From the IMG/VR virus record IMGVR_UViG_3300006900_000001, positions 1-52,075 of that record: a DNA stretch of 52,075 bases; one strand, given 5' to 3'. The stretch is from a virus. How positions within the stretch are numbered: the stretch's first letter is position 1; each line of letters opens with the position of its first letter. Made by a program: the position numbers and the translations under genes. Under the pieces are notes generated by a model. It made no database searches and had not been told where the DNA came from. It worked only from the letters and a program-made list of their open reading frames with translations. Positions 1,698-43,105 of this stretch are shown here, piece by piece.

Positions 1698-2366
1698 ATG
1701 GCAACACCTTCAGAACTTAAAGCTGCACAAGCCTTGCTGAACACGAAATGTGTTTTGTTTAACGCTAAAAAACCTTTTGTTTTCACATCAGGCAGAATAA
1801 GCCCCGTATATGTTGATATTCGCAGGCTCATCGCCTTCCCTCAGGAGCGCAACATGCTGATGGGGATGGCCGCCGAAAAACTGAGTGAGCTTGACCTCGA
1901 CTTTATAGCAGGCGGTGAAACCGCCGGAATTCCTTATGCTGCTTTTATTTCTGAGCGTTTAAACAAGCCTATGCTTTATGTACGAAAAAAGCCAAAAGGC
2001 TTCGGTCGCATGGCGCAAATTGAGGGTTGCATGGATGAGGACGGTAAATCTGTAATCCTTGTTGAAGACCTCCAAACTGATGGTGGCAGCAAGAAACTTT
2101 TCATTGATGTTTTACGCGAGGCCGGTGCTAAGGTTGAACACTCTTTTGTCGTTTTCCATTATGGTATTTTCGATCAATCTGTACAAAATATGAAGGATTT
2201 AGGCGTTACTTTGCATGAGCTTACGAACTGGTGGGCTGTTCTGGACGTTGCCCGAGAGAATAAATATTTTGACGAGGAGACTTTAGAGTCAGTTGAGTTC
2301 TTCCTAAACAACCCTGATAAATGGGCCGAAAAGAATGCCCACCTTGCTGACACGAAAACAGCGTAA
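1698..2366 (+). CDS. pyrE: Orotate phosphoribosyltransferase
   Basis: The enzyme makes orotidine 5'-monophosphate from orotate and PRPP in cytoplasmic de novo pyrimidine synthesis. The PRPP-binding motif is seen as VILVEDLQTDGGS (residues 119-131), and the N-terminal FTSGRISPVYVDIRRL (29-44) is the orotate-side signature. Length, 222 aa, is normal for the family. AAAAGGAAAACC before the ATG gives a good ribosome binding site. nadK follows after 12 bp, so the two are probably co-transcribed. Confidence 0.93.
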   Translation: MATPSELKAAQALLNTKCVLFNAKKPFVFTSGRISPVYVDIRRLIAFPQERNMLMGMAAEKLSELDLDFIAGGETAGIPYAAFISERLNKPMLYVRKKPKGFGRMAQIEGCMDEDGKSVILVEDLQTDGGSKKLFIDVLREAGAKVEHSFVVFHYGIFDQSVQNMKDLGVTLHELTNWWAVLDVARENKYFDEETLESVEFFLNNPDKWAEKNAHLADTKTA

Positions 2367-2378
2367 GGACAAAGTTAT

Positions 2379-3149
2379 ATGAAACTGCATTTTCTTCATG
2401 CCGATTCACCTCCAGCTGAAAAAGCCTTTAAAAAACTGACCGGCCGTTATGGTCAAAACCCACGGGAAGACGCTGATACTATCGTTGTTCTGGGTGGGGA
2501 CGGGACAATTCTTGAAACGCTTCATGAAGGTATAAAAAGAGCAGAAAACACCCCCGTTTATGGGCTGAATTACGGTTCCCTGGGATTTTTGCTTAACCCT
2601 CAGACTGATAGTGTCGGAGACCTGCCGGAAAGAATTGCGGCCAGTTCGCAAGTCACCATCCACCCTTTGCGCATGAACTGCACTTGTGTTGATGGTCAAA
2701 ATCACGATGCGATTGCTTTTAACGAAGTCTCTCTGATGCGAGAGCGTCGTCAGGCGGCAAAAATAGAGCTTTATATTAATGATGTAAAACGTATGGAAGA
2801 GCTGGTCTGTGACGGGGTTATGGTCGCAACTCCGGCCGGAAGTACTGCTTATAACCTGTCAGCTCATGGACCTATCCTGCCTATTGATGCAAATGTCCTG
2901 ACCTTAACCCCTATCTCTGCCTTTCGTCCCAGACGCTGGCGCGGCGCTGTTTTGCCCGAAAAGGCCTGCTTTACCTTCAAAATACTAGAGCAAGATAAAA
3001 GGCCCGTCAGTGCAACGGCTGATTTTACTGAAATCAGAGAGGTGTCTGAGGTTAAAGTCTGGCAGAGTAAAGATCTTTCAAAAACGCTGCTTTTCGACCC
3101 TGATCATAATCTTGAAGAGCGGATTTTACGCGAACAATTCGCAAGTTAG
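2379..3149 (+). CDS. nadK: NAD kinase
   Basis: The enzyme phosphorylates NAD to NADP in the cytoplasm. The diagnostic GGDGT is at residues 39-43 with catalytic Asp41, followed by the NYGSLGFL segment near 64-71 and the DGVMVATPAGSTAYNLSAHG block near 145-165. Length, 256 aa, is typical of the shorter alphaproteobacterial forms. It lies directly downstream of pyrE and ends about 80 bp before the tRNA-Phe gene. Confidence 0.93.
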   Translation: MKLHFLHADSPPAEKAFKKLTGRYGQNPREDADTIVVLGGDGTILETLHEGIKRAENTPVYGLNYGSLGFLLNPQTDSVGDLPERIAASSQVTIHPLRMNCTCVDGQNHDAIAFNEVSLMRERRQAAKIELYINDVKRMEELVCDGVMVATPAGSTAYNLSAHGPILPIDANVLTLTPISAFRPRRWRGAVLPEKACFTFKILEQDKRPVSATADFTEIREVSEVKVWQSKDLSKTLLFDPDHNLEERILREQFAS

Positions 3150-3229: not shown

Positions 3230-3305
3230 GCTCAGGTAGCTCAGTCGGTAGAGCAAAGGACTGAAAATCCTTGTGTCGCCGGTTCGATCCCGGCCCTGAG
3301 CACCA
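3230..3305 (+). tRNA. tRNA-Phe (anticodon GAA)
   Basis: A full cloverleaf can be drawn: acceptor GCTCAGG/CCTGAGC, D-stem GCTC/GAGC, anticodon stem AAGGA/TCCTT with loop CTGAAAA (GAA at 3263-3265), T-stem GCCGG/CCGGC with loop TTCGATC, and an encoded CCA. The 3' end from the T-loop onward is the prophage attachment core. The integrated copy keeps the gene intact. Confidence 0.97.
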
Positions 3306-3308
3306 TTT
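3287..3308 (+). repeat. attL core (22 bp, 3' end of tRNA-Phe)
   Basis: The 22 bp starting ATCCCGGCCC are identical to 40912-40933 and include the T-loop end, acceptor strand, CCA and TTT. The sequences diverge directly after the repeat. Confidence 0.93.
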
Positions 3309-3429
3309 ACTGAATCCCAGAAGTACACAGAAGTTCCTAGAAGGACGAAAAGCCCGCCATTTATAAGGGCTATTTCGCGCTTGACTGTTCACCGTTGTTC
3401 GTGGAAGTATTCCCAAAGCAAGCCCTATT

Positions 3430-3470
3430 TGGGGGCAAGTATGGGGGCAAGACTTTACACATGGGGGCAA
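3430..3470 (+). promoter_or_regulatory. Integrase arm-type sites, left (3 x TGGGGGCAA)
   Basis: TGGGGGCAA occurs at 3430-3438, 3442-3450 and 3462-3470, with start spacing 12 and 20 bp, between attL and the integrase start. The same word occurs beside attR. This layout is what is expected of integrase arm-binding sites. The last copy ends 1 bp before the int ATG, so Int binding could also repress its own translation or transcription. Confidence 0.6.
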
Positions 3471-3471
3471 A

Positions 3472-4662
3472 ATGGCGTTGACTGACCTTAAATGCAAGGG
3501 CGCGAAGCCTAAGGACAAGGCTTACAAGCTATTCGACGGTATGGGATTATATCTTGAGATAATCCCGAGTGGCAAGAAATTCTGGCGAATCAAATACAGG
3601 TATCTGGGTAAGGAAAAAAGAATATCCCTTGGAGAATACCCCCTGGTCACGTTGCAAGCTGCCAGAGATAAATGCCTGGAGTGTAAAAAACTACTCCAAG
3701 ACAACAAGGATCCCTCTTTAGAAAGGAAAAAAAGCATCCAGGCTATGCAGACAGAGGCCAGCAACTCTTTTCAAAGTATTGCTGACGAGTGGATAGACAA
3801 AAACAAAGTTAGATGGAGTGAAGGTTATCTAAAGAAGGTAAGAAGAAGCTTAGAGATACACGTTTTCCCTTTTATAGGAAAAGACCCGATAAACAATATC
3901 AAGGCTATAGACTTAATGCGTAAATGCTTTTCCAGAATGGAAGAAAAAGGCATTAGCGATTTACTAGACCGAACAAGACAGATATGTAATCAGATATTCA
4001 GGTATGGGATCCAGACTAATAGATGTACCGAAAATCCAGCGGACCAGTTAAGGGGCGCGTTGGCTACACGGCCTCATTCTCATTACAGGAGCATAGATAT
4101 AAATGACCTGTCCGAGTTCCTTAGAAACCTGGAGCGCAACGAGGCGCGGCTCTATGAGCAGACACGCAGGGCAGTATGGTTTTCCATCTATACGTTTTGC
4201 AGACCGGGCGAAATAAGAAAGGCGCAATGGGAACACATTGACTTGCCTAACGCTCGCTGGATAATTCCGGCAAGGTTTATGAAGAAAAGGCGAGATCATG
4301 TCGTCCCTTTATCACAGCAATCCTTAAAGATAATAAAAATGCAGAAAAGTGACCTGTACGGTATAAAAACCCCTTATGTTTTTCCTTCTGTCGTAAGATT
4401 CTCAAACCCCATGAGCGAGAATACAGTCAATCAGGCGATAAAGAGAATTGGCTTCGGTAACAAGATGGTAGCTCACGGCTTTAGGGCATTAGCACGTACG
4501 CAGATTAGGGAAAAATTAAAGTATGATAGCGATATTATAGAAAAACAGCTTGCACACAAATCCTCTGGCCCTTTAGGTGAGGCTTACGATAGAACCGAAT
4601 TTATAGAAGACAGGACGAAAATGATGCAAGAATGGGCCGACTTCGTGGATGGCTTCCTTTAA
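3472..4662 (+). CDS. int: Prophage tyrosine integrase (P4 type)
   Basis: The enzyme performs site-specific recombination between attP and attB in the tRNA-Phe gene. Residues 1-90 are the arm-binding DUF4102-type domain (GMGLYLEIIPSGKKFWRIKY). The middle is the SAM-like core-binding domain (about 97-195). The catalytic domain shows R244 (FCRPGEIR), H335 and R338 (HGFRALAR), H362 (LAHKS) and the nucleophile Y372 (AYDRTEF). Length, 396 aa, is usual. The gene points away from attL into the prophage. All catalytic residues are present, so it should be active. Confidence 0.95.
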   Translation: MALTDLKCKGAKPKDKAYKLFDGMGLYLEIIPSGKKFWRIKYRYLGKEKRISLGEYPLVTLQAARDKCLECKKLLQDNKDPSLERKKSIQAMQTEASNSFQSIADEWIDKNKVRWSEGYLKKVRRSLEIHVFPFIGKDPINNIKAIDLMRKCFSRMEEKGISDLLDRTRQICNQIFRYGIQTNRCTENPADQLRGALATRPHSHYRSIDINDLSEFLRNLERNEARLYEQTRRAVWFSIYTFCRPGEIRKAQWEHIDLPNARWIIPARFMKKRRDHVVPLSQQSLKIIKMQKSDLYGIKTPYVFPSVVRFSNPMSENTVNQAIKRIGFGNKMVAHGFRALARTQIREKLKYDSDIIEKQLAHKSSGPLGEAYDRTEFIEDRTKMMQEWADFVDGFL

Positions 4663-5563: not shown

Positions 5564-6366
5564 TTCTTCCTCTTTATGTTTTTGCGGTCGTACCAGTTGT
5601 GACGGCACTCGTTGCATTTAAACCGTTGCTTAGTGCCGGATTTCCTTTGAACAACACCGCGCTTATTAAAGTCGATAGACAGGCAGACGGGGCAGTGTCG
5701 AACCATCTCCCCATCAGGGTAGAACTCACGGGCGTAGACAGACAGATCAGGGTGTGTGTGGTGATATGCCCTTAGTTTCTTGTAGATTTGCGCAGTGACT
5801 ATCACGTCCTGTTTATTGTACTTCCGCATATATCGAAGGGCATCTGGACAGCCCTTTTTGCAGGCATTCCAATCAGGAGAGTTGTCTTTAAGGTCTAGCC
5901 CCAGAAAGTCAGCTATATATGAGAGTTTATTAGACGTGAATTTGAAGTATTTTCGCGCCATCTTGAGGGTGTCTATCTGCACTTTCTTGCCCAAAGGAGG
6001 CAGGCCGTAACTGATAGCGCGCGCATTGAATTTCTTTAGATCAAAGGCGTCTGAGTTATGACCGATTAACACTTCTGCCTGATCTAGGACATGATGCAAT
6101 GCCTTTACAACACCCTCATCATTTAAAGGGTCTTCGCACCTTACTGAAAGAGCATGTGCCTTATCATCATCAAGCCATTTAACGGCCGCTCCTAAAAGTG
6201 TCCAGTCACGCTTTATGTATTTTGGGTCAAAGCGTCTTGTAAAGACTTTGAGGTCATATTGGTTTATCTCTAAAGTGAGGTCTGTACACTCAACATCCCA
6301 TATCAGTATTTTCTTTTTGACATGGGTGTCCATGCCGAGGCGCAAGCCACTGGCTGTTTCAATCAT
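5560..6366 (-). CDS. DEDDy-type 3'-5' exonuclease with C-terminal zinc ribbon
   Basis: The N-terminal RNase H-like fold shows Exo I as WDVECTD (D24, E26), Exo II as GHNSDAFDLKKFNAR (102-116) and Exo III as YNKQD (Y183, D187), like the proofreading domain of family B polymerases. A separate C-terminal zinc ribbon has C225, C228, C251 and C254. No polymerase domain is present. It sits between the holin and endolysin genes, an odd place for a nuclease, and overlaps the endolysin start by 4 bp. AAAGGA lies before the ATG. It may degrade host or competing DNA late in infection, or process packaged ends. Both are inference. Confidence 0.75.
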   Translation of the reverse strand: MIETASGLRLGMDTHVKKKILIWDVECTDLTLEINQYDLKVFTRRFDPKYIKRDWTLLGAAVKWLDDDKAHALSVRCEDPLNDEGVVKALHHVLDQAEVLIGHNSDAFDLKKFNARAISYGLPPLGKKVQIDTLKMARKYFKFTSNKLSYIADFLGLDLKDNSPDWNACKKGCPDALRYMRKYNKQDVIVTAQIYKKLRAYHHTHPDLSVYAREFYPDGEMVRHCPVCLSIDFNKRGVVQRKSGTKQRFKCNECRHNWYDRKNIKRKK

Positions 6367-6375
6367 CTGATTCCT

Positions 6376-6729
6376 TTATTTAGAGAGGCGGGATTTTATA
6401 ATATCAAGGGCGGTATCCACGGCTTTATCGAACCAGCCGCCCAGGAATATCCTATCGGCTGATAGAGCTATAAGTGTTCCGATAACTGTTGCCCACGCGA
6501 AGCCTAAGCCGCCTTCAAAGCTGGCCATGCTGGCCAAACCCCCTATGGGGGCAGAAACGACAAGTGCCTTGAGATAGGTGTGTGCGCGCCGTTCCTCAAC
6601 TGTAAAAAGCGTCTTCGAGATTACTATGGCGCATATCCACATCAGTGAATACACAAGAGGGTTAAAGAGAAGAAGAAAATTCGATGCGATAAAAAAAGAG
6701 GCGTCTACTATGGCTGATTTAAGTGTCAT
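6376..6729 (-). CDS. Putative holin
   Basis: This 117-aa membrane protein has hydrophobic segments at about residues 12-42 and 54-92 and a short basic C-terminus (IIKSRLSK). Small size, membrane segments and position just upstream of the exonuclease, endolysin and spanins make it the best holin candidate. It starts directly after the stop of the DUF4376 gene. I cannot place it in a named holin family from sequence alone. Confidence 0.65.
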   Translation of the reverse strand: MTLKSAIVDASFFIASNFLLLFNPLVYSLMWICAIVISKTLFTVEERRAHTYLKALVVSAPIGGLASMASFEGGLGFAWATVIGTLIALSADRIFLGGWFDKAVDTALDIIKSRLSK

Positions 6730-7218
6730 TTATCCCTCCATTTCCGCGTTAAAGGCTGATTTAACTCCTTCGACATCTGATATACTGCCATCTTCTATCG
6801 ATTGCCTGACGATTCCAGCCGCATCAACACACTTCTGAACATGCTCAGCTATCGCAACGCCTATTGACTTAATCTGCAAGGCAGTAAGCTGGACATCTTC
6901 TCCGTTAAGAACAAAATTAAAGGCCTCCGTATCTGGTAGGCCTTTTAAAATTATCTCGGTGATTTTTCCGTTTATGAGAATTTTATCTCTGTCCCTGGTT
7001 GGTATTTCCATACCCCCCGCGCTTATGCCTCCAGTTTCGACTTGCCATCTGTGGTTATCAAGGACGGACATTAAGTCTAAGTCGGGTGCCGGCAAAATAA
7101 AATCGTCCCCATCCACAACCATGCCACAGACAACGCTGTCATCTACCTCTATAAAACCATCTTGTTTATTCGGTTGTTTTTGAACGACAACCCCATTATT
7201 TACTTTTACGTATGCCAT
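6730..7218 (-). CDS. DUF4376-domain tail-associated protein
   Basis: The central HRWQVETGGISAGGMEIP (about residues 56-73) followed by TRDRDKILINGK is the recognisable DUF4376 core. This domain is common in proteins encoded just after tail-fibre genes and is thought to act in fibre structure or assembly. The 162-aa protein starts with MAYVKVNNGVVVQ, typical of tail-fibre accessory proteins. The gene abuts the fibre gene (stop TAA directly followed by ATG). Confidence 0.75.
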   Translation of the reverse strand: MAYVKVNNGVVVQKQPNKQDGFIEVDDSVVCGMVVDGDDFILPAPDLDLMSVLDNHRWQVETGGISAGGMEIPTRDRDKILINGKITEIILKGLPDTEAFNFVLNGEDVQLTALQIKSIGVAIAEHVQKCVDAAGIVRQSIEDGSISDVEGVKSAFNAEMEG

Positions 7219-19735: not shown

Positions 19736-19810
19736 TGGCGTATGCGTATGGATTTGAACCATAACCTGCAGTTTTGGAGACTGCCGTGCTGCCATTAACA
19801 CTACACACAC
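19736..19810 (-). tRNA. Phage-encoded tRNA-Trp (anticodon CCA)
   Basis: The minus strand folds into a cloverleaf: acceptor GTGTGTG/CGCATAC (with G-T wobble pairs), D-stem GTGT/GCAC, anticodon stem GCAGT/ACTGC with loop CTCCAAA, T-stem TATGG/CCATA with loop TTCAAAT, discriminator G and encoded CCA. The variable loop has four bases, one less than usual. It lies between the minor-head and scaffold genes, enclosed by terminators on both sides. Confidence 0.88.
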
Positions 19811-31128: not shown

Positions 31129-31800
31129 ATGGAAAAGTTTTCGAATAAATTCTCTAAGGGAATACGCCAATACATGGAGAACAAGGGCATTACACAAAAT
31201 GCCTTAGCTAACATGATTGATACAAAGTCCGGCTATTTGAGTGAGTTGCTTGCTAATAAAAAGCGATGGAATACCGATAAGATAGAGGATGTTCTCGAAG
31301 CTTTGAATGTTGAGATGTCAGATATACTTCCTAAAAAAGAGAATCTAGAAGTCAAATACATAAAAGTGATTGCCGCAGTACAAGCCGGGGTTTGGAAAGA
31401 AGCAGTACAATGGCATGAGGATGACTGCTATACAGCAAAGATCGCACTGCCAAATGACTATGCAAAAAAGAACTATTTCGGGCTACTGGTCGAGGGTGAC
31501 TCAATGGATAAAGAGTTCGGCCCAGGTTCAATCCTGACAGTATGCCCCGTTTATGAATATGATGACGAGGTTAAAAGCGGCCACTTCGTAATCGTTCAGC
31601 GTACTATGAATGGAATAACAGAGGCTACCGCTAAGCAGCTTGAGATCATAGACGGTCATGCAAAGCTGTGGCCTCGATCAAACAACCCTAAATATCAAGA
31701 ACCAATTGAAATCACATGGCCTTATGAAGATCCGCAGGAATGTGGATTGGAAACTGTGGAGATAACCGGCATAGTGGTTTCAGCAACGAAAGTTTATTAG
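31129..31800 (+). CDS. CI-type prophage repressor with S24 peptidase domain
   Basis: The N-terminal HTH (ITQNALANMIDTKSGYLSEL, 21-40) binds operators. The C-terminal S24 domain has the Ala-Gly cleavage site A86-G87 (VQAGVW), catalytic S125 (GDSMDKEF) and K169 (TAKQLEI), so RecA-stimulated self-cleavage and SOS induction are expected. No Shine-Dalgarno lies before the ATG, so the mRNA may be leaderless, as for lambda cI from PRM. The lipoprotein and coiled-coil genes follow closely in the same direction and should be expressed in the lysogen. Confidence 0.92.
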   Translation: MEKFSNKFSKGIRQYMENKGITQNALANMIDTKSGYLSELLANKKRWNTDKIEDVLEALNVEMSDILPKKENLEVKYIKVIAAVQAGVWKEAVQWHEDDCYTAKIALPNDYAKKNYFGLLVEGDSMDKEFGPGSILTVCPVYEYDDEVKSGHFVIVQRTMNGITEATAKQLEIIDGHAKLWPRSNNPKYQEPIEITWPYEDPQECGLETVEITGIVVSATKVY

Positions 31801-34062: not shown

Positions 34063-34268
34063 AACCCTTAGATTTCAGTCCTAACGCTCAACAGATACCT
34101 ATACGTATCTCCCCTTCTGTATCCGACCAGATAGAAAAGGCCAGAACATGTATTTTATCGGTGGATGTGGCTGTGGGAAGCGGAACGCATTTAACCGAAC
34201 GCGATAAAACACAGCTCGAACTACTCATTAAACAAGCAGAAATATTACTTATGGAGGCAGACCTATGA
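34059..34268 (+). CDS. Small hypothetical protein, 69 aa
   Basis: A soluble product with IPIRISPSVSDQIEKARTCI and a C-terminal helix (KTQLELLIKQAEILLMEADL). It overlaps the annealing-protein gene by ATGA. Not recognised. Confidence 0.6.
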   Translation: MKPLDFSPNAQQIPIRISPSVSDQIEKARTCILSVDVAVGSGTHLTERDKTQLELLIKQAEILLMEADL

Positions 34269-34927
34269 ACCTCGAAGATTTAAGAAAACCATTTCCGACT
34301 GAAAAGATATCTTGGCGTGTCGGTGCCATGACAAAGGACAAGACAAAATGTATTGCGCTTGCCTATATAGACGCGCGTGATGTCATGGAAAGATTGGACG
34401 AAGTTTGTGGCGTTGGTGGCTGGCAATCAACGCATCCTCACGCACACGGAAAAACATCCTGTAAAATCGGAATTAAGGTCGGTGACGACTGGGTGTGGAA
34501 AGAAAACGGTGCAGGTGACACTCAGGTTGAGGCCGATAAAGGCGCATTCTCTGATGCTTTCAAGCGAGCAGGTGTGATGTGGGGGATAGGACGTTATTTA
34601 TACGATATGCCTAACGTGTGGGTGGAGCTTGACCAGTATAAGAAGATTAAGCCAGCTGAAATCACAAAGCTTAACAAAGCACATGACCAGTTAGCCAAAG
34701 GGCAAGTACCTGTAATTCAAGAGTCAAAAAAGGATTTCACAGCAGAAGAAACCAAAACCATGCGTGACCGCATTAAGTCTTGTTCTTCTCCAGAGGACTT
34801 TGAGTCAATCAAGCAAGAACTGGCAGACGAAAAGCACCGTATGACCGAACAGCAAATCAAGCACCTAGGCGCTGAGTACACGGAACACCTAAAGAAAACC
34901 AAAAACCCCGATGGAGAAGCGGCATGA
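34265..34927 (+). CDS. Rad52-type single-strand annealing protein
   Basis: The N-terminal 125 residues match the Rad52/Rad22 family: LRKPFPTEKISWRVGAMTKD, CIALAYIDARDVMERLDEVC, the beta-hairpin CKIGIKV and ADKGAFSDAFKRAGVMWGIG. The C-terminal part is variable and helical. It should anneal complementary strands in phage recombination, together with the exonuclease and SSB encoded directly downstream. Length 220 aa. Confidence 0.88.
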   Translation: MNLEDLRKPFPTEKISWRVGAMTKDKTKCIALAYIDARDVMERLDEVCGVGGWQSTHPHAHGKTSCKIGIKVGDDWVWKENGAGDTQVEADKGAFSDAFKRAGVMWGIGRYLYDMPNVWVELDQYKKIKPAEITKLNKAHDQLAKGQVPVIQESKKDFTAEETKTMRDRIKSCSSPEDFESIKQELADEKHRMTEQQIKHLGAEYTEHLKKTKNPDGEAA

Positions 34928-35645: not shown

Positions 35646-36080
35646 ATGACTGGAAGCGTGAATAAAGTAACTTTAATCGGAAACTTGGGAAATGACCCCG
35701 AAATCCGGACAATGCAAAGCGGCGATAAGGTTTGCAACCTGTCTATTGCCACCTCGGAAAGCTGGAAGGATAAAGCAACCGGTGAGCGCAAGGACAAAAC
35801 CGAGTGGCACCGCGTGGTAATTTTCAATCAGGGCTTAATGGGAGTTTGCGAAAAGTACCTTTCCAAGGGTTCAAAGGTTTACATCGAAGGTCAACTGGAA
35901 ACCCGCTCATGGGAACAGGACGGACAAAAGAAATACACGACTGAGGTCGTCTTACGTCCTTATCGCGGTGAACTGACGATGCTGGACGGCAAGAAAGACG
36001 CGCAACCTTCACAGCATGACCAGGATAAGGCGAACGGCTATCAGCCTCAAGATAGTCTAGAGGATGAAATACCGTTCTGA
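35646..36080 (+). CDS. ssb: Single-stranded DNA-binding protein
   Basis: The OB-fold starts [20 protein letters not shown] and includes [13 protein letters not shown], and the protein ends in the canonical acidic tip DEIPF used to recruit partner proteins. The start is the second ATG, with GGAG eight bases upstream, giving 144 aa. An in-frame ATG lies four codons earlier. Its stop overlaps the next start. Confidence 0.93.
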
Positions 36081-36370
36081 TGATCCGCTCCCCTAAACAC
36101 CTCAAGTTTATCCGTTCTCTCCCCTGTGTCAGATGCAGGCATGGTGAAACCCAAGCGGCGCATATCCGCAAAGGCACGGGCGGGGGAAAGGCGATAAAGC
36201 CGAGTGATAAGTTTACCGTTCCGTTATGTCACTCATGCCATGACACACAACATAACCGAGGCGAGGTGAGTTTCTGGGGTGATGTGGAGAGAGCAGTAAA
36301 GCTTGCCGAGGACTTATACGCGGTAAGCGGAAACTGGGAAAAGGCTTGCGGCCTAATAGTGAGATTCTAA
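36080..36370 (+). CDS. DUF968-like HNH/zinc-finger putative nuclease
   Basis: The 96-aa protein has PCVRCRHGETQAAHIRKGTG and KFTVPLCHSCHDTQHNRGEV, that is paired CxxC motifs with the AAHI and H-x3-H of the HNH-like DUF968 family found in phage recombination regions. It likely cuts or binds DNA. It overlaps SSB (TGATG) and NinB (TAATG). Confidence 0.8.
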   Translation: MIRSPKHLKFIRSLPCVRCRHGETQAAHIRKGTGGGKAIKPSDKFTVPLCHSCHDTQHNRGEVSFWGDVERAVKLAEDLYAVSGNWEKACGLIVRF

Positions 36371-36798
36371 TGAGATTTATAATTACAGATAAAGACCCGT
36401 CACGGATGACCAAGTGTATACACCATCTTTCTGCTTTGCCAACGATGAAGGATTGGCAAGTGGATATAAAGGAGTACACCCCGAACAGGTCAAATGCTCA
36501 AAATAACACCTACTGGATGTGGCTAGGTGAGCTGGCAAAGTTCATGGGTGAGAGCAAGGACGAACTTCACGATAAATTCGCTCTAAAGCTTATCGGGTTT
36601 GAGGAAAAGGAAATTGCTTACAGGGATGCGGAAGGAAATGTCCAGACCTTCACTAAACGCAACCCGAAAAGCACAAAGTCATTAACAGTAAAGGAGTTCT
36701 CGGAGTATCTGGCACAGGTGGAGATTACAATATTACAGGCGTTTCCTGATTTTAAGCTCCCCTACCCGGATGATTATAAGTACGCCCTGAATGGTTAA
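36370..36798 (+). CDS. NinB-like recombination protein
   Basis: The 142-aa protein shows the NinB pattern: WQVDIKEYTPNRSNAQNNTY then WMWLGELAKFMGESKDELHD. Lambda NinB (Orf) binds single-stranded DNA and helps load recombinases. The start is chosen at the ATG overlapping the upstream stop. It ends the recombination gene cluster before a 266-bp structured gap. Confidence 0.85.
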   Translation: MRFIITDKDPSRMTKCIHHLSALPTMKDWQVDIKEYTPNRSNAQNNTYWMWLGELAKFMGESKDELHDKFALKLIGFEEKEIAYRDAEGNVQTFTKRNPKSTKSLTVKEFSEYLAQVEITILQAFPDFKLPYPDDYKYALNG

Positions 36799-37064
36799 TC
36801 AGTGAGGCCTTCCTCCTTATTGTTTTGCTGCATTTGTAGTGAAGGTCTCTCTTGTTAACCCCTCTCTGTGGTCACTGTGGTGTAGCGTTGCAGTGACCAC
36901 ATGGACGGGCGGCGTGGAAGGACACGTACGGAATTAGGCTAGTCGCGCTAGTACGTTTCAGCCGATCAGACTATAGCGGGTAGCACCCTGAAAGCTGATT
37001 TAAACAAACGCAGGCAGCAGGTATCAAGCCCTGCCCCGTCCAACTAACAACGAAAGGAAATGTG
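36799..37064 (+). ncRNA. Gap with three strong stem-loops, candidate structured RNA
   Basis: No gene is seen. A perfect 10-bp stem GTGGTCACTG/CAGTGACCAC lies at 36868-36900, a second with ACGTAC/GTACGT at 36924-36956, and a third with TCAGC/GCTGA enclosing GGG/CCC at 36958-36998. The tail before the next gene carries its ribosome site (AAAGGA). Confidence 0.4.
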
Positions 37065-37559
37065 ATGGAAGAGTTTATAAAGGAATATTTTGATCAGGAT
37101 AATGCTTGTACGGCTTATCCAATATATTTCCAGATACAAGACATAGAGTGGGTTTCAAGTTATCACTTTGAAGACGGAGAAAGATACTCTTTCGTGTATG
37201 ACGGAGAGATTGTGGCTCAAGAAGAAACTCTTGAAGAATTATTTAAGGAGATCAGGGAGAGCTGCCATGACTGTGAATTGGATTTCTCTTCAGTCTTAGA
37301 TGAAAACTGGATAAGCGAAGCTACCTGCCAAGCATTCTGCGAAGATAACGATTACTGCAACGGCATTTTTGCTGAAAAGAAACATTATAAATATTGCCAG
37401 ATGTTCCTTCTGAAATCCGAGGCAGAATCCCACCTAAAAGATAATCACTATCATTACAGCAAGGAAGCCAAGGTCTATTGCCAACACGCTTGGCGCGATC
37501 CTAGACAGGAGAAATTTTTGAAAGACTTGCACGCTTTTCTTGTTAAGGAGGCAGCATGA
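37065..37559 (+). CDS. Hypothetical cysteine-rich phage protein
   Basis: The 164-aa acidic protein contains CHDCELDFSS, CQAFCEDNDYCNGIF and CQMFLLKSEAESHLKDNHYH, with cysteine and histidine pairs that could bind metal. The ATG is taken over a GTG one codon upstream; AAAGGA precedes. It is not recognised. A 12-codon frame (MTHPTNPPRKER) overlaps its stop and the next start. Confidence 0.65.
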   Translation: MEEFIKEYFDQDNACTAYPIYFQIQDIEWVSSYHFEDGERYSFVYDGEIVAQEETLEELFKEIRESCHDCELDFSSVLDENWISEATCQAFCEDNDYCNGIFAEKKHYKYCQMFLLKSEAESHLKDNHYHYSKEAKVYCQHAWRDPRQEKFLKDLHAFLVKEAA

Positions 37560-37590: not shown

Positions 37591-38505
37591 ATGATGGAAG
37601 ACGTATTTGATAAAGAAATAAAAGACTTAATAAAGCTAGCAACAACTGACTTTGACAAGTTCTATAAGGAGACAGAAAAGAAATCAAAAAGCTCTGGATA
37701 CTCCAGCACAGCGGCATCGTGTGGAGACTACAGCACAGCGGCATCGTGTGGAGACTACAGCACAGCGGCATCGAGTGGATACTCCAGCAAAGCGGCATCG
37801 AGTGGATACTCCAGCAAAGCGGCATCGAGTGGATACTCCAGCAAAGCGGCATCGAGTGGAAACTCCAGCAAAGCGGCATCGAGTGGAGACTACAGCAAAG
37901 CTTCTTGTGAAGGTGAAAATGCCGCTTGTTCTGCTTTGGGGTATAGAGCAGCCGTGAAAGGCGAATTGGGGAACTTGCTAATGGCGTCTGAGTATAAAAA
38001 GGAAAAAGGCAAACTTATTCCGGTTGGTGGCAAGGCTGATATTGTAGATGGAAAGACTTTAAAGCCTGATTGCTGGTATATTGTTGAAGGTGCAGAATGG
38101 GTGGAAGTTGACTTCACGGATGGTTTATTTCACCGCGTCGTCTCTACACGAGGCAATGTAAAGCGGCTTAAAGACGACAACGATAATCAGGTCTATCTGG
38201 TCACAGACGGCGATAAGTCTGCACATGGCAAAACTATCAAAGAAGCTCGTGAAAACCTTAAGTATAAAATCGGCAATAGAGACAAGAGCCAATATGAAAA
38301 AATCAAAGTCACAGACAGTTTTCCAGTTACCGACTTCATAGAAATGTACCGCGTGATTACTGGTGCTTGCGAATACGGTGTTAGGTCATTCATTGAAAGC
38401 CAGCCAAAGGTAAAGAAGAAATATACTGTTCAGGAAATTATAGACCTGACATCCGGTCACTACGGGCATAACGAGTTTAAACAGTTCTTTAGCGAGGCCA
38501 CATGA
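37591..38505 (+). CDS. Repeat-containing protein with AASSG beta-roll-like repeats and DUF7666-like C-terminus
   Basis: After about 35 N-terminal residues come eight 9-residue repeats (GYSSKAASS, GDYSTAASC and variants), then ALGYRAAVKGELGNLLMASE and a C-terminal 150 residues with WYIVEGAEWVEVDFTDG typical of a family found in phages and labelled DUF7666. Repeats of this kind fold as a beta roll or solenoid in related proteins. Start at the first of two ATGs after AAAGGAAAG; 304 aa. Function unknown; DNA mimicry or scaffolding are possible. Confidence 0.7.
   Translation: MMEDVFDKEIKDLIKLATTDFDKFYKETEKKSKSSGYSSTAASCGDYSTAASCGDYSTAASSGYSSKAASSGYSSKAASSGYSSKAASSGNSSKAASSGDYSKASCEGENAACSALGYRAAVKGELGNLLMASEYKKEKGKLIPVGGKADIVDGKTLKPDCWYIVEGAEWVEVDFTDGLFHRVVSTRGNVKRLKDDNDNQVYLVTDGDKSAHGKTIKEARENLKYKIGNRDKSQYEKIKVTDSFPVTDFIEMYRVITGACEYGVRSFIESQPKVKKKYTVQEIIDLTSGHYGHNEFKQFFSEAT
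37696..37911 (+). repeat. Eight 27-bp tandem repeats
   Basis: Units start every 27 bp from 37696. Units 4, 5 and 6 (37777-37857) are identical (GGATACTCCAGCAAAGCGGC and seven more bases); the last unit is degenerate. They encode the 9-aa repeats. Copy number could change by slippage without shifting the frame. Confidence 0.92.
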
Positions 38506-41119: not shown

Positions 41120-43105
41120 ATGGCCACCTATACTGGTGACAATAATAACAACAACCTCGCCGCCGACAGTCAGGTCGATGCGGACGATTTTTTCTTTGGA
41201 ATGGACGGTAATGATTCTCTCACAGCCTATGGTGGGAATGATCTTCTTGATGGTGGCATGGGCGATGATATCTTAAACGGAGGCGATGATGATGATATTT
41301 ATATTTGGAGCAATGGTTTTGACCGGATTTACGATACACATGGGGTTGACCGTATACGCTTCACGACGCACAGCCTCAGCGACATCAGCTTCGCACGCAA
41401 CGAAACGGCAGATCTTTTAATTTCAGTTCCAGGCAATAACCAGATCCGTGTGGCCAATCATTTTGCAAGTCACACAAGCGCTTACCGTATAGAATATATA
41501 GAGGTTGGTGGAACAGTTATTGCCCTTCAGGATATAGATGCCTGGGTCTATGGCAATGCTGAAGGAAATGTTCTGCGCGGAGATGCGCCCACAGCTTTAT
41601 GGACAGATACAATGTATGGCGGGGATGGTAATGACACCATCTATGGTTACAGCCTGCGTGACATATTATATGGCCAGGATGGTGATGACACTATTTACGG
41701 CGGAACAGATAATGATGAGCTATGGGGAGGAAACGGAAACGACCACCTTCAGGGTGAGGAAGGCGACGATGTTCTATATGGTGAATATGGCGATGATATT
41801 TTAAGTGGTGGTGATGGTACTGATTTGATGTATGGCGGTGATGGTAATGATAACCTTTCCGGCGGAGACGGCGATGACACTATTTACGGCGGTAGCGGGC
41901 AGGACACCTTAAACGGAGGTGCTGGTGCAGATGCCCTTTTCGGAGGAGGCAACTCCGATATTATAAATGGCGGGAGCGGCAATGACCTGCTCCGTGGCGA
42001 CGTTGGTGACGACCTGCTGGATGGTGGTGACGGCAATGACGAGCTTTATGGCGAAGATGGCAATGATACCCTTATGGGATCCCTTGGAAATGATTATATA
42101 GACGGCGGTTCAGGGGTCGATCTCATCAATTTTATCCAGGTAAATCACGGTATTAATTTCGATCTGGCTGCCGGCACAAATACGCTGACAAACGGTGATA
42201 CGCAAATTTATTTGAATATTGAAAATGTTCGCGGCACCTATCACAATGATGTTATCTACGGTGACGGTGGTACAAACATTATTTATGGCGGCAGTGGTCG
42301 CGATGATCTTTTCGGCAACGGTGGCACAGACATACTTTATGGGGAAGATGGACATGATCGCCTCTGGGGCGGTGATGGTAATGACCAGCTTTATGGCGGC
42401 CTTCTGAATGACCAGCTTTACGGTGGCAACGGTGATGATTATCTATACGGGGAATTAGGTAATGATTATCTCTTTGGAGATGCTGGCCATGACACACTCT
42501 TTGGTGCTGAAGGTAATGACCAGCTTACAGGTGGGGAAGGTAATGACAATCTCTGGGGAAGCGTTGGTAACGACATTCTTGATGGAGGCGATGGCACCGA
42601 TACTCTGTACGGCGAAGACGGCGATGATATTTTGCGCGGCGGTGCTGGTACAGATTACATGTTTGGTGATGATCGCTTTTCCACGCCGGGATTTTCAAGT
42701 ACAGGTAATGATGAGCTTTACGGGGAGGATGGTAATGACCGCCTTTATGGTGGTGCCGGTGATGACTTTTTAAATGGCGGTGCCGGCTCAGATGTCCTGT
42801 TCGGCGGCACAGGACGTGACACCTTCCATTACGGTGCGGACAGCCTGAACCAGTCTTTCGATTACATTATGGATTTCGAACCAGGTCCGAACGGAGACTA
42901 TATTGACATCAGTGATGTCATTGATTATGGACCGAATGATGTCTTATCTGATTTCGTATGGTTCGAACGGACACATTACCATACACGCATGCATATCGAC
43001 GCGGATGGCACAGGCCCGGAAGGCTCTCAAATCCTTACACAAATTCAAGACCACCGCGATCTTGACGTGGCCCAATTAATAGCCAACGGCCAATTAATAG
43101 TTTAA
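41120..43105 (+). CDS. RTX calcium-binding protein, probably type I secreted
   Basis: The 661-aa protein is built of GGxGxDxLxG nonapeptides in several blocks (about 25-60, 165-330 and 365-570), which form calcium-bound parallel beta rolls. Residues 60-125 (HSLSDISFARNETADLLISV ... IRVANHF) resemble the haemolysin-related calcium-binding domain. The C-terminus (GRDTFHYGADS, DYIMDFEPG) is a type I secretion target region. No enzyme domain is seen. Host gene, first after attR, convergent with glpK with 3 bp between. Confidence 0.85.
   Translation: MATYTGDNNNNNLAADSQVDADDFFFGMDGNDSLTAYGGNDLLDGGMGDDILNGGDDDDIYIWSNGFDRIYDTHGVDRIRFTTHSLSDISFARNETADLLISVPGNNQIRVANHFASHTSAYRIEYIEVGGTVIALQDIDAWVYGNAEGNVLRGDAPTALWTDTMYGGDGNDTIYGYSLRDILYGQDGDDTIYGGTDNDELWGGNGNDHLQGEEGDDVLYGEYGDDILSGGDGTDLMYGGDGNDNLSGGDGDDTIYGGSGQDTLNGGAGADALFGGGNSDIINGGSGNDLLRGDVGDDLLDGGDGNDELYGEDGNDTLMGSLGNDYIDGGSGVDLINFIQVNHGINFDLAAGTNTLTNGDTQIYLNIENVRGTYHNDVIYGDGGTNIIYGGSGRDDLFGNGGTDILYGEDGHDRLWGGDGNDQLYGGLLNDQLYGGNGDDYLYGELGNDYLFGDAGHDTLFGAEGNDQLTGGEGNDNLWGSVGNDILDGGDGTDTLYGEDGDDILRGGAGTDYMFGDDRFSTPGFSSTGNDELYGEDGNDRLYGGAGDDFLNGGAGSDVLFGGTGRDTFHYGADSLNQSFDYIMDFEPGPNGDYIDISDVIDYGPNDVLSDFVWFERTHYHTRMHIDADGTGPEGSQILTQIQDHRDLDVAQLIANGQLIV

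Follow-up and report, generated by a model that had tools for sequence, protein, structure and literature searches.

The early region of a prophage contained in a 52,075-base virus record (the whole of which is referred to as the window) encodes a repeat protein (37591–38505, + strand). This phage protein probably binds a partner in the cytoplasm by means of a modular surface that recombination between repeats, combined with selection, diversifies. At the level of sequence, comparison with relatives establishes a repeat array, a conserved C-terminal domain (CTD), varied repeat types joined to this domain, changes in copy number and an excess of amino acid variation that is confined to certain positions of the unit. 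We further infer that the protein binds a partner, that it resides in the cytoplasm, that its 9-residue units form a rigid array and which roles its partner and its CTD would play.

The repeat gene is part of a prophage early region

The prophage is likely attached at a stretch (3230–4659) in which a tRNA-Phe gene (3230–3305, +) is followed by a tyrosine integrase gene (3472–4659, +). Its genes for a minor-tail protein, a tail tube, a portal-like protein and a terminase are encoded on the minus strand, a rightward early-gene run comes after the S24 repressor at 31129, and host-type genes for glycerol kinase, an FAD-dependent oxidoreductase and YjbH are found from about 43.1 kb. Left of the integrase, phosphoribosyltransferase-domain and NAD-kinase-like genes (1698–3146, +) are probably host genes, and a tRNA-Trp gene (19736–19810, −) is situated within the prophage structural region. 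Just to the right of the excisionase-like HTH gene of the prophage, an RTX protein of 661 residues with 16 scoring RTX stretches is encoded (41120–43105, +), which could be a host gene or prophage cargo.

The repeat gene shares an operon-like run with a gene for a Rad52/Erf-type annealing protein (34265–34927, +; Pfam E 2.4e-20, PHROG 1097). Upstream of the repeat gene, this early run also contains genes for a DUF968 protein (36080–36370, +), a NinB-like recombination mediator (36346–36798, +; PHROG 72, E 2.4e-18), an exonuclease-like protein and an SSB-like protein, the latter recognized by eye. A DUF968 gene is likewise found near the family gene of relative L002. The gene immediately upstream of the repeat gene (37062–37559, +) matches PHROG 3205, a family without an assigned function. 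At 39 loci of the family, 126 of 155 mechanically collected neighbors are located on the same strand as the family gene. RecT-like proteins are the commonest family (four cases) in the 132 of these neighbors that were scanned, which also include a few members each of the exonuclease VIII, NinB, SSB, methyltransferase and repressor families, as well as HNH. Both the gene content of the neighborhood and its strand support an early role of the family gene.

The array consists of near-identical 9-residue units

The open frame of the repeat gene encodes 304 residues, or 303 if translation starts at the ATG at 37594, which is likelier because relatives align to the second methionine. A leader of about 34 residues (37591–37692), predicted to be helical with low confidence and common to L002, L003, L042 and L047, precedes an array of eight 9-residue units of the pattern SG[DYN][SY]S[KT]AAS (37693–37908), which is followed by a cap (37909–38127) and the CTD (38128–38502), all on the plus strand. 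By eye, no signal sequence is evident in the N-termini read. TRF detects a single 27-bp array (37695–37901, 7.7 copies, 95% matches), whose units start in codon register at 37693 and then every 27 bp. Units 4–6 are identical in DNA, units 2 and 3 likewise, and unit 8 is degenerate; TRF and the codon register thus confirm the eight tandem units, three of them identical, that an earlier note on this DNA had described. The units vary at codon 3 (TAC in four, GAC in three and AAC in one), codon 4 (TCC in five, TAC in three) and codon 6 (AAA in five, ACA in three), in addition to which Cys replaces Ser at codon 1 of two units and minor changes are present at both array ends. The degenerate unit pattern matches seven times in the window, each time inside the array, and not once in 100 shuffles.

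The solenoid-type fold proposed in the earlier note is backed by structure prediction with regard to its one strand per repeat but not with regard to confidence, the pLDDT being only ~43; a solenoid is a plausible fold of the 9-mer array. Strand alternation in the model underlies the outward placement of the variable side chains, so that codons 3, 4 and 6 would face outward, with codon 3 sitting just before the strand. The resemblance of the repeat model to RTX proteins, MinC and other beta-solenoids is weak (best Z 6.5 over 120 residues, rmsd 3.8), falls within the noise for such models and is accompanied by no sequence match.

The earlier note had moreover assigned a DUF7666-like domain to the protein. 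This assignment does not hold: a search of the 52-kb record with PF24703 yields nothing, and at E ≤ 1 Pfam gives the window protein no more than a single NUMOD4 hit below threshold. Profile matches to PHROG 27197 (E 7.8e-17) and PHROG 4433 (E 5.4e-08) cover only the repeats and the cap; the cap, which is modeled with a pLDDT of mostly 77–94, accounts for part of the PHROG 27197 match. The 9-mers of DUF7666 proteins end in the same type of cap, and in the protein UXO94020.1 of Pseudanabaena phage Pan4 the order is DUF7666, 9-mers and cap, which explains the suggested association and ties the repeat to another phage domain. The 21 units of the Pan4 array resemble those of the window in their 9-residue SGxx... 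pattern and in varying mainly at positions 3 and 4, with Thr/Met at position 8 in two units. However, DUF7666 proteins carry their 95-residue domain (PF24703) in front and lack the CTD, the opposite of the window protein. A literature search returned no paper on DUF7666.

A conserved C-terminal domain is joined to different repeat scaffolds

The CTD comprises about 125 residues with the motifs AHGxTIxEA, YRxITGACxxG and YTxxEI, and it defines the family. A search with a profile built from five CTDs retrieved 158 relatives in viral contigs, of which 80 were kept, and 37 in mostly metagenome-assembled genome contigs, which by their organism names belong to Bacteroidota, Alpha- and Deltaproteobacteria, Clostridia, Elusimicrobia, Omnitrophota, Saccharibacteria and one methanogen assembly. 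Among 198 Bacteroidota genomes, one carries the family, namely the seed genome. All 129 open frames, that of the window included, match the CTD profile, this set pooling later and earlier matches and containing six frames that duplicate others, either as identical copies or as the same locus. The alignment of the domain (A6, 86 rows) has eight invariant columns, H43, K57, Y84, T88, G89, A90, C91 and G94, numbered by position in the modeled CTD stretch, and the AlphaFold model obtained with 86 sequences is confident (pLDDT 91.2, pTM 0.77). The CTD may have a catalytic His/Cys role.

Neither Pfam nor PHROG holds a family that describes the CTD, and the PDB contains no convincing relative by sequence. 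With the CTD model as query, none of 257 Foldseek matches reaches E ≤ 0.001, the best VIA-align hit has a Z of 5.7 over just 48 residues, and a viral structure library yields five phage proteins at E ≤ 0.001, the function of none of which has been tested. A HicB-like reading of AHGxTIxEA was discarded, as HicB is absent from the 25 Pfam families listed for 91 CTDs (E ≤ 1), and DUF4261, which matches 14 of these 91 (best 1.8e-05), is too weak to identify the domain.

The same CTD is joined to 9-mers, 8-mers, LRR-like 18–22-mers, BspA repeats and Gly-rich runs. Repeat classes, set by regular expressions and then corrected by hand at 22 loci, were given to 124 of the 129 frames, with five left out. 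They comprise LRR-like LPxxL (49) and IPxxFN (25) repeats, 9-mers (18), other VGG-type repeats (14), 8-mers (8), Gly-rich runs (6) and other LRRs (4). LRR profiles match in relatives L048, L113 and L009, with LRR_1 and LRR_4 above their curated cut-offs in L048, and are absent from the Pfam matches of the window protein at E ≤ 1. On the CTD tree, the seven repeat classes require 24 class changes, the minimum being six. For either of the two big LRR classes, the starred branches force just four changes, and for every other class a single one. Scaffolds have thus likely been swapped repeatedly, as far as a tree of this short alignment indicates.

Amino acid variation concentrates at putatively exposed positions

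In 123 loci, 87 arrays were detected, 71 of which have at least four clean units. With a codon seen in two or more units as the criterion for a variable column, 183 codon columns of these 71 arrays vary in amino acid and 62 silently only, a relation that over all columns is close to the neutral expectation and becomes informative only when split by position. In 9-mer and LRR-like arrays, the units are near-identical down to their silent sites and differ mainly at three codons each. The residues that alternate at variable codons are Tyr/Ser, Tyr/Asp/Asn, Lys/Thr and Arg/Glu, the commonest allele pairs being S/Y (28), D/Y (20), D/N (9) and E/R (9).

The 14 9-mer arrays contain 39 amino-acid-varying columns, 36 of which correspond to unit codons 3, 4 and 6. 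These codons were first noticed in the window, L022, L025, L027 and L043; in nine other 9-mer arrays with clear register, 21 of 22 amino-acid-varying columns and none of six silent columns fall on them. In LRR-like arrays, the variable codons correspond to outward-facing residues on the LRR strand (xLxLx). Here, the x of GGxLxLx, which forms the strand face of LRRs, was taken as exposed, and two LRR arrays without clear register were dropped. Among 147 exposed columns, 75 vary in amino acid and four silently, compared to 49 and 55, respectively, among the 839 non-exposed columns. The resulting pN/pS is 3.83 for exposed versus 0.36 for framework positions in LRR-like repeats (49 arrays) and 14.7 versus 0.06 in 9-mers (14 arrays). 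A pseudocount of 0.5 was applied, which makes the 9-mer value rough; both values derive from small silent counts at exposed codons (0 in 9-mers, four in LRR-like arrays) and use exposed position sets chosen with some of the data already known. After related arrays had been merged, the density of variation was higher at exposed positions in 7 of 7 9-mer and 31 of 33 LRR-like lineages. This pattern test covers the 9-mer and LRR-like arrays. Other coding arrays were considered as a control set and abandoned, since the 19 found were too few and too mixed.

The exposed positions also have a distinct composition. Tyrosine makes up 18.2% of 1155 exposed versus 0.27% of 6571 framework residues in LRR-like arrays, and 24.8% of 501 exposed versus none of 1002 framework residues in 9-mers. 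The exposed alphabet of the LRR-like arrays consists of Tyr, Ser, Asp, Arg, Glu and Trp, and the same alleles recur among repeats of unrelated sequence. The third base beside an amino acid polymorphism is uniform in 96 of 102 columns, being T or C depending on the array, and this uniform, array-specific silent base indicates that variation recurred after homogenization. Among pairs of variable codons, all four gametes occur in 17 of 39 for the 9-mers and in 18 of 91 for the LRR-like arrays, indicative of partial assortment. As exceptions, several arrays have no shared variants, and L075, L021, L023 and L116 also vary at framework codons.

Repeat number differs among relatives

The earlier note had reasoned that identical units permit in-frame changes in copy number, and such a change is seen in two isolates: the Riemerella phages CRP5 and CRP6 possess four and two repeats of 22 residues, respectively. 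Both are identical in 1,800/1,800 bases of the upstream flank, in 2,177/2,177 aligned downstream bases (with 192 gap columns) and in the last 420 bases of the family gene; their difference in units may stem from assembly collapse in one record. According to the earlier note, a constant repeat number combined with a predicted disordered region would have refuted its reading; the number is not constant among other relatives either, as the same count gives 19 units for L022, 11 for L025, 13 for L027 and 11 for L043, and arrays of one or two units exist in L095 and L013. Beyond the array, L022 and L025 are identical at 645 of 651 bases, yet their unit numbers differ, as do their silent framework codons. 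A copy-number difference between L052 and L056 was dropped from consideration because the L056 contig begins close to the repeats. Most arrays come from metagenome assemblies, in which units may be collapsed or mixed. Of the 80 viral and 37 genome loci, 41 and 18, respectively, have a contig end within 1 kb on the upstream side of the CTD, but only 4 and 1 on its downstream side, and this upstream excess implies that assemblies break in the arrays.

A probable modular binding surface and alternative explanations

In the explanation that we consider probable, the family gene encodes a two-part, putatively cytoplasmic protein of the phage early region, composed of array and CTD. The array would form a modular binding surface, in which a rigid, near-invariant framework displays a strip of variable residues (Tyr, Ser, Asp, Asn and Lys/Thr in the window protein), and the CTD would represent a constant functional or docking head. 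Recombination between repeats would add, remove and reshuffle units, and selection would hold the framework and diversify the exposed positions. The partners would likely be varying molecules of the host or of a competitor, by analogy with lamprey receptors and with designed binders rich in Tyr and Ser. Mechanistically, recombination of units combined with selection at the exposed residues explains the pattern most simply; relaxed constraint at exposed sites could give part of the pattern.

The best-surviving alternative, although an unlikely one, is that the array serves as a rigid spacer or solubility tail, in which exposed residues drift and any soluble repeat suffices to display the CTD. 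This agrees with the unrelated repeats and even simple Gly-rich runs that precede the same CTD, as well as with the shrinkage of the array to one unit in L095. Drift, however, cannot exceed the silent rate, whereas pN/pS at exposed positions ranges from 3.8 to 14.7, and unrelated repeats have arrived at the same Tyr/Ser/Asp alleles.

Rather less credible still is an array that reads nucleic acid unit by unit, with the CTD acting on the bound site. TAL effectors consist of near-identical, helical units of 34 residues with few hypervariable residues, and the arrays described here are similar in the near-identity of their units and in the few variable residues of each, but not in unit length and helical structure. 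RecT, exonuclease VIII, NinB, SSB and HNH families in the neighborhood would suit a nucleic-acid reader, yet Tyr/Ser/Asp abound among the exposed residues, which are not strongly basic, a code common to all units is unlikely given that their unrelated lengths range from 8 to 22 residues, and no nucleic-acid-binding family was matched, a TAL effector being likewise absent from the Pfam matches of the window protein at E ≤ 1.

Adhesins commonly contain beta-solenoid and LRR repeats with Tyr/Ser, which could suggest a virion or surface adhesin recognizing receptors. We regard this as improbable, since the gene belongs to the rightward early genes behind the repressor with the tail genes far away on the other strand, the N-termini read are devoid of an evident signal sequence by eye, and genes for recombination, regulation and DNA modification predominate among the sampled neighbors, which include a single tail-sheath match.

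Mutation of the array by a diversity-generating retroelement (DGR), whose target proteins are phage binding surfaces diversified in a similarly targeted way, is very improbable and was rejected for the window: DGRs need a reverse transcriptase, which is encoded in 3 of 16 records but not in the other 13, the window among them, and a template repeat; with up to three mismatches allowed, the window contains no further copy of the unit beyond the array, and none is present in four related records either (one chance-like match with two mismatches). The D/Y alternation, moreover, corresponds to G/T, with many columns lacking adenine.

The diversified binding protein that we favor finds a parallel in the variable lymphocyte receptors of lampreys, which are LRR solenoids with variable residues on the strand face; their variability is reported to be mostly located on the concave LRR beta-sheet (PMC3900441). 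Unlike the phage proteins, whose units are near-identical to each other, they are antigen receptors of jawless vertebrates built by gene conversion, and no homology is claimed. Designed binders are described to use elevated Tyr/Ser/Gly (PMC4575168).

Taken more broadly, the family may represent a general phage recognition system with a constant domain, interchangeable scaffolds, template-free diversification of exposed positions with a small alphabet centered on Tyr/Ser/Asp, comparable to the practice of antibody engineering, and reshuffling by recombination, a suggestion that we put forward tentatively. It might, with similar reservation, occur in phages from a wide range of bacterial lineages as well as in an element of one or more archaeal assemblies. 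Within such a system, reshuffling would possibly be carried out by the phage's own recombinase encoded nearby, and the binder repertoire might conceivably be used inside the cell against host or rival targets. What would be new is the whole, i.e. a constant domain, interchangeable scaffolds and a shared alphabet without a template, as its ingredients, LRR and beta-solenoid repeats, are known. A literature search on phage LRR terms returned no paper, a broader one at search-result level gave nothing on the CTD family, and neither the combination nor the CTD nor the shared alphabet turned up in the libraries and literature searched. If true, phages would make diversified binding proteins without a template, following the logic of lamprey receptors and of minimal synthetic antibodies, although on scaffolds that can be exchanged for one another. 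This would open a concrete search for partners among defense proteins, rival phage proteins and nucleic acids, supply binder design with scaffolds from nature and account for a class of repeat genes that interrupt short-read assemblies.

Additional gene copies and arrays

Some loci contain further copies or arrays. L021 harbors a second full copy of the family gene (6116–7141) downstream of the first, with its own diversified LRR-like array. L023 and L085, located close together on the same contig, are a long copy and a degenerate short copy, whose CTD DNA is 93.7% identical over 351 bases. TJE1 and Dulem virus 31 also encode members of the family, and an integron-like cassette array is described for TJE1 (PMC9892861). 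In L051, a separate 24-bp coding-type array (1324–1544) is present upstream of the family gene, and L030, L047 and L114 have long arrays of 6-bp units elsewhere than in the family gene. At the start of Bacteroides phage BF1-TP2 (L132), a 27-bp array (148–386) lies beside an Erf gene; the annotated gene begins behind this array, and the record opens in a homopolymer run.
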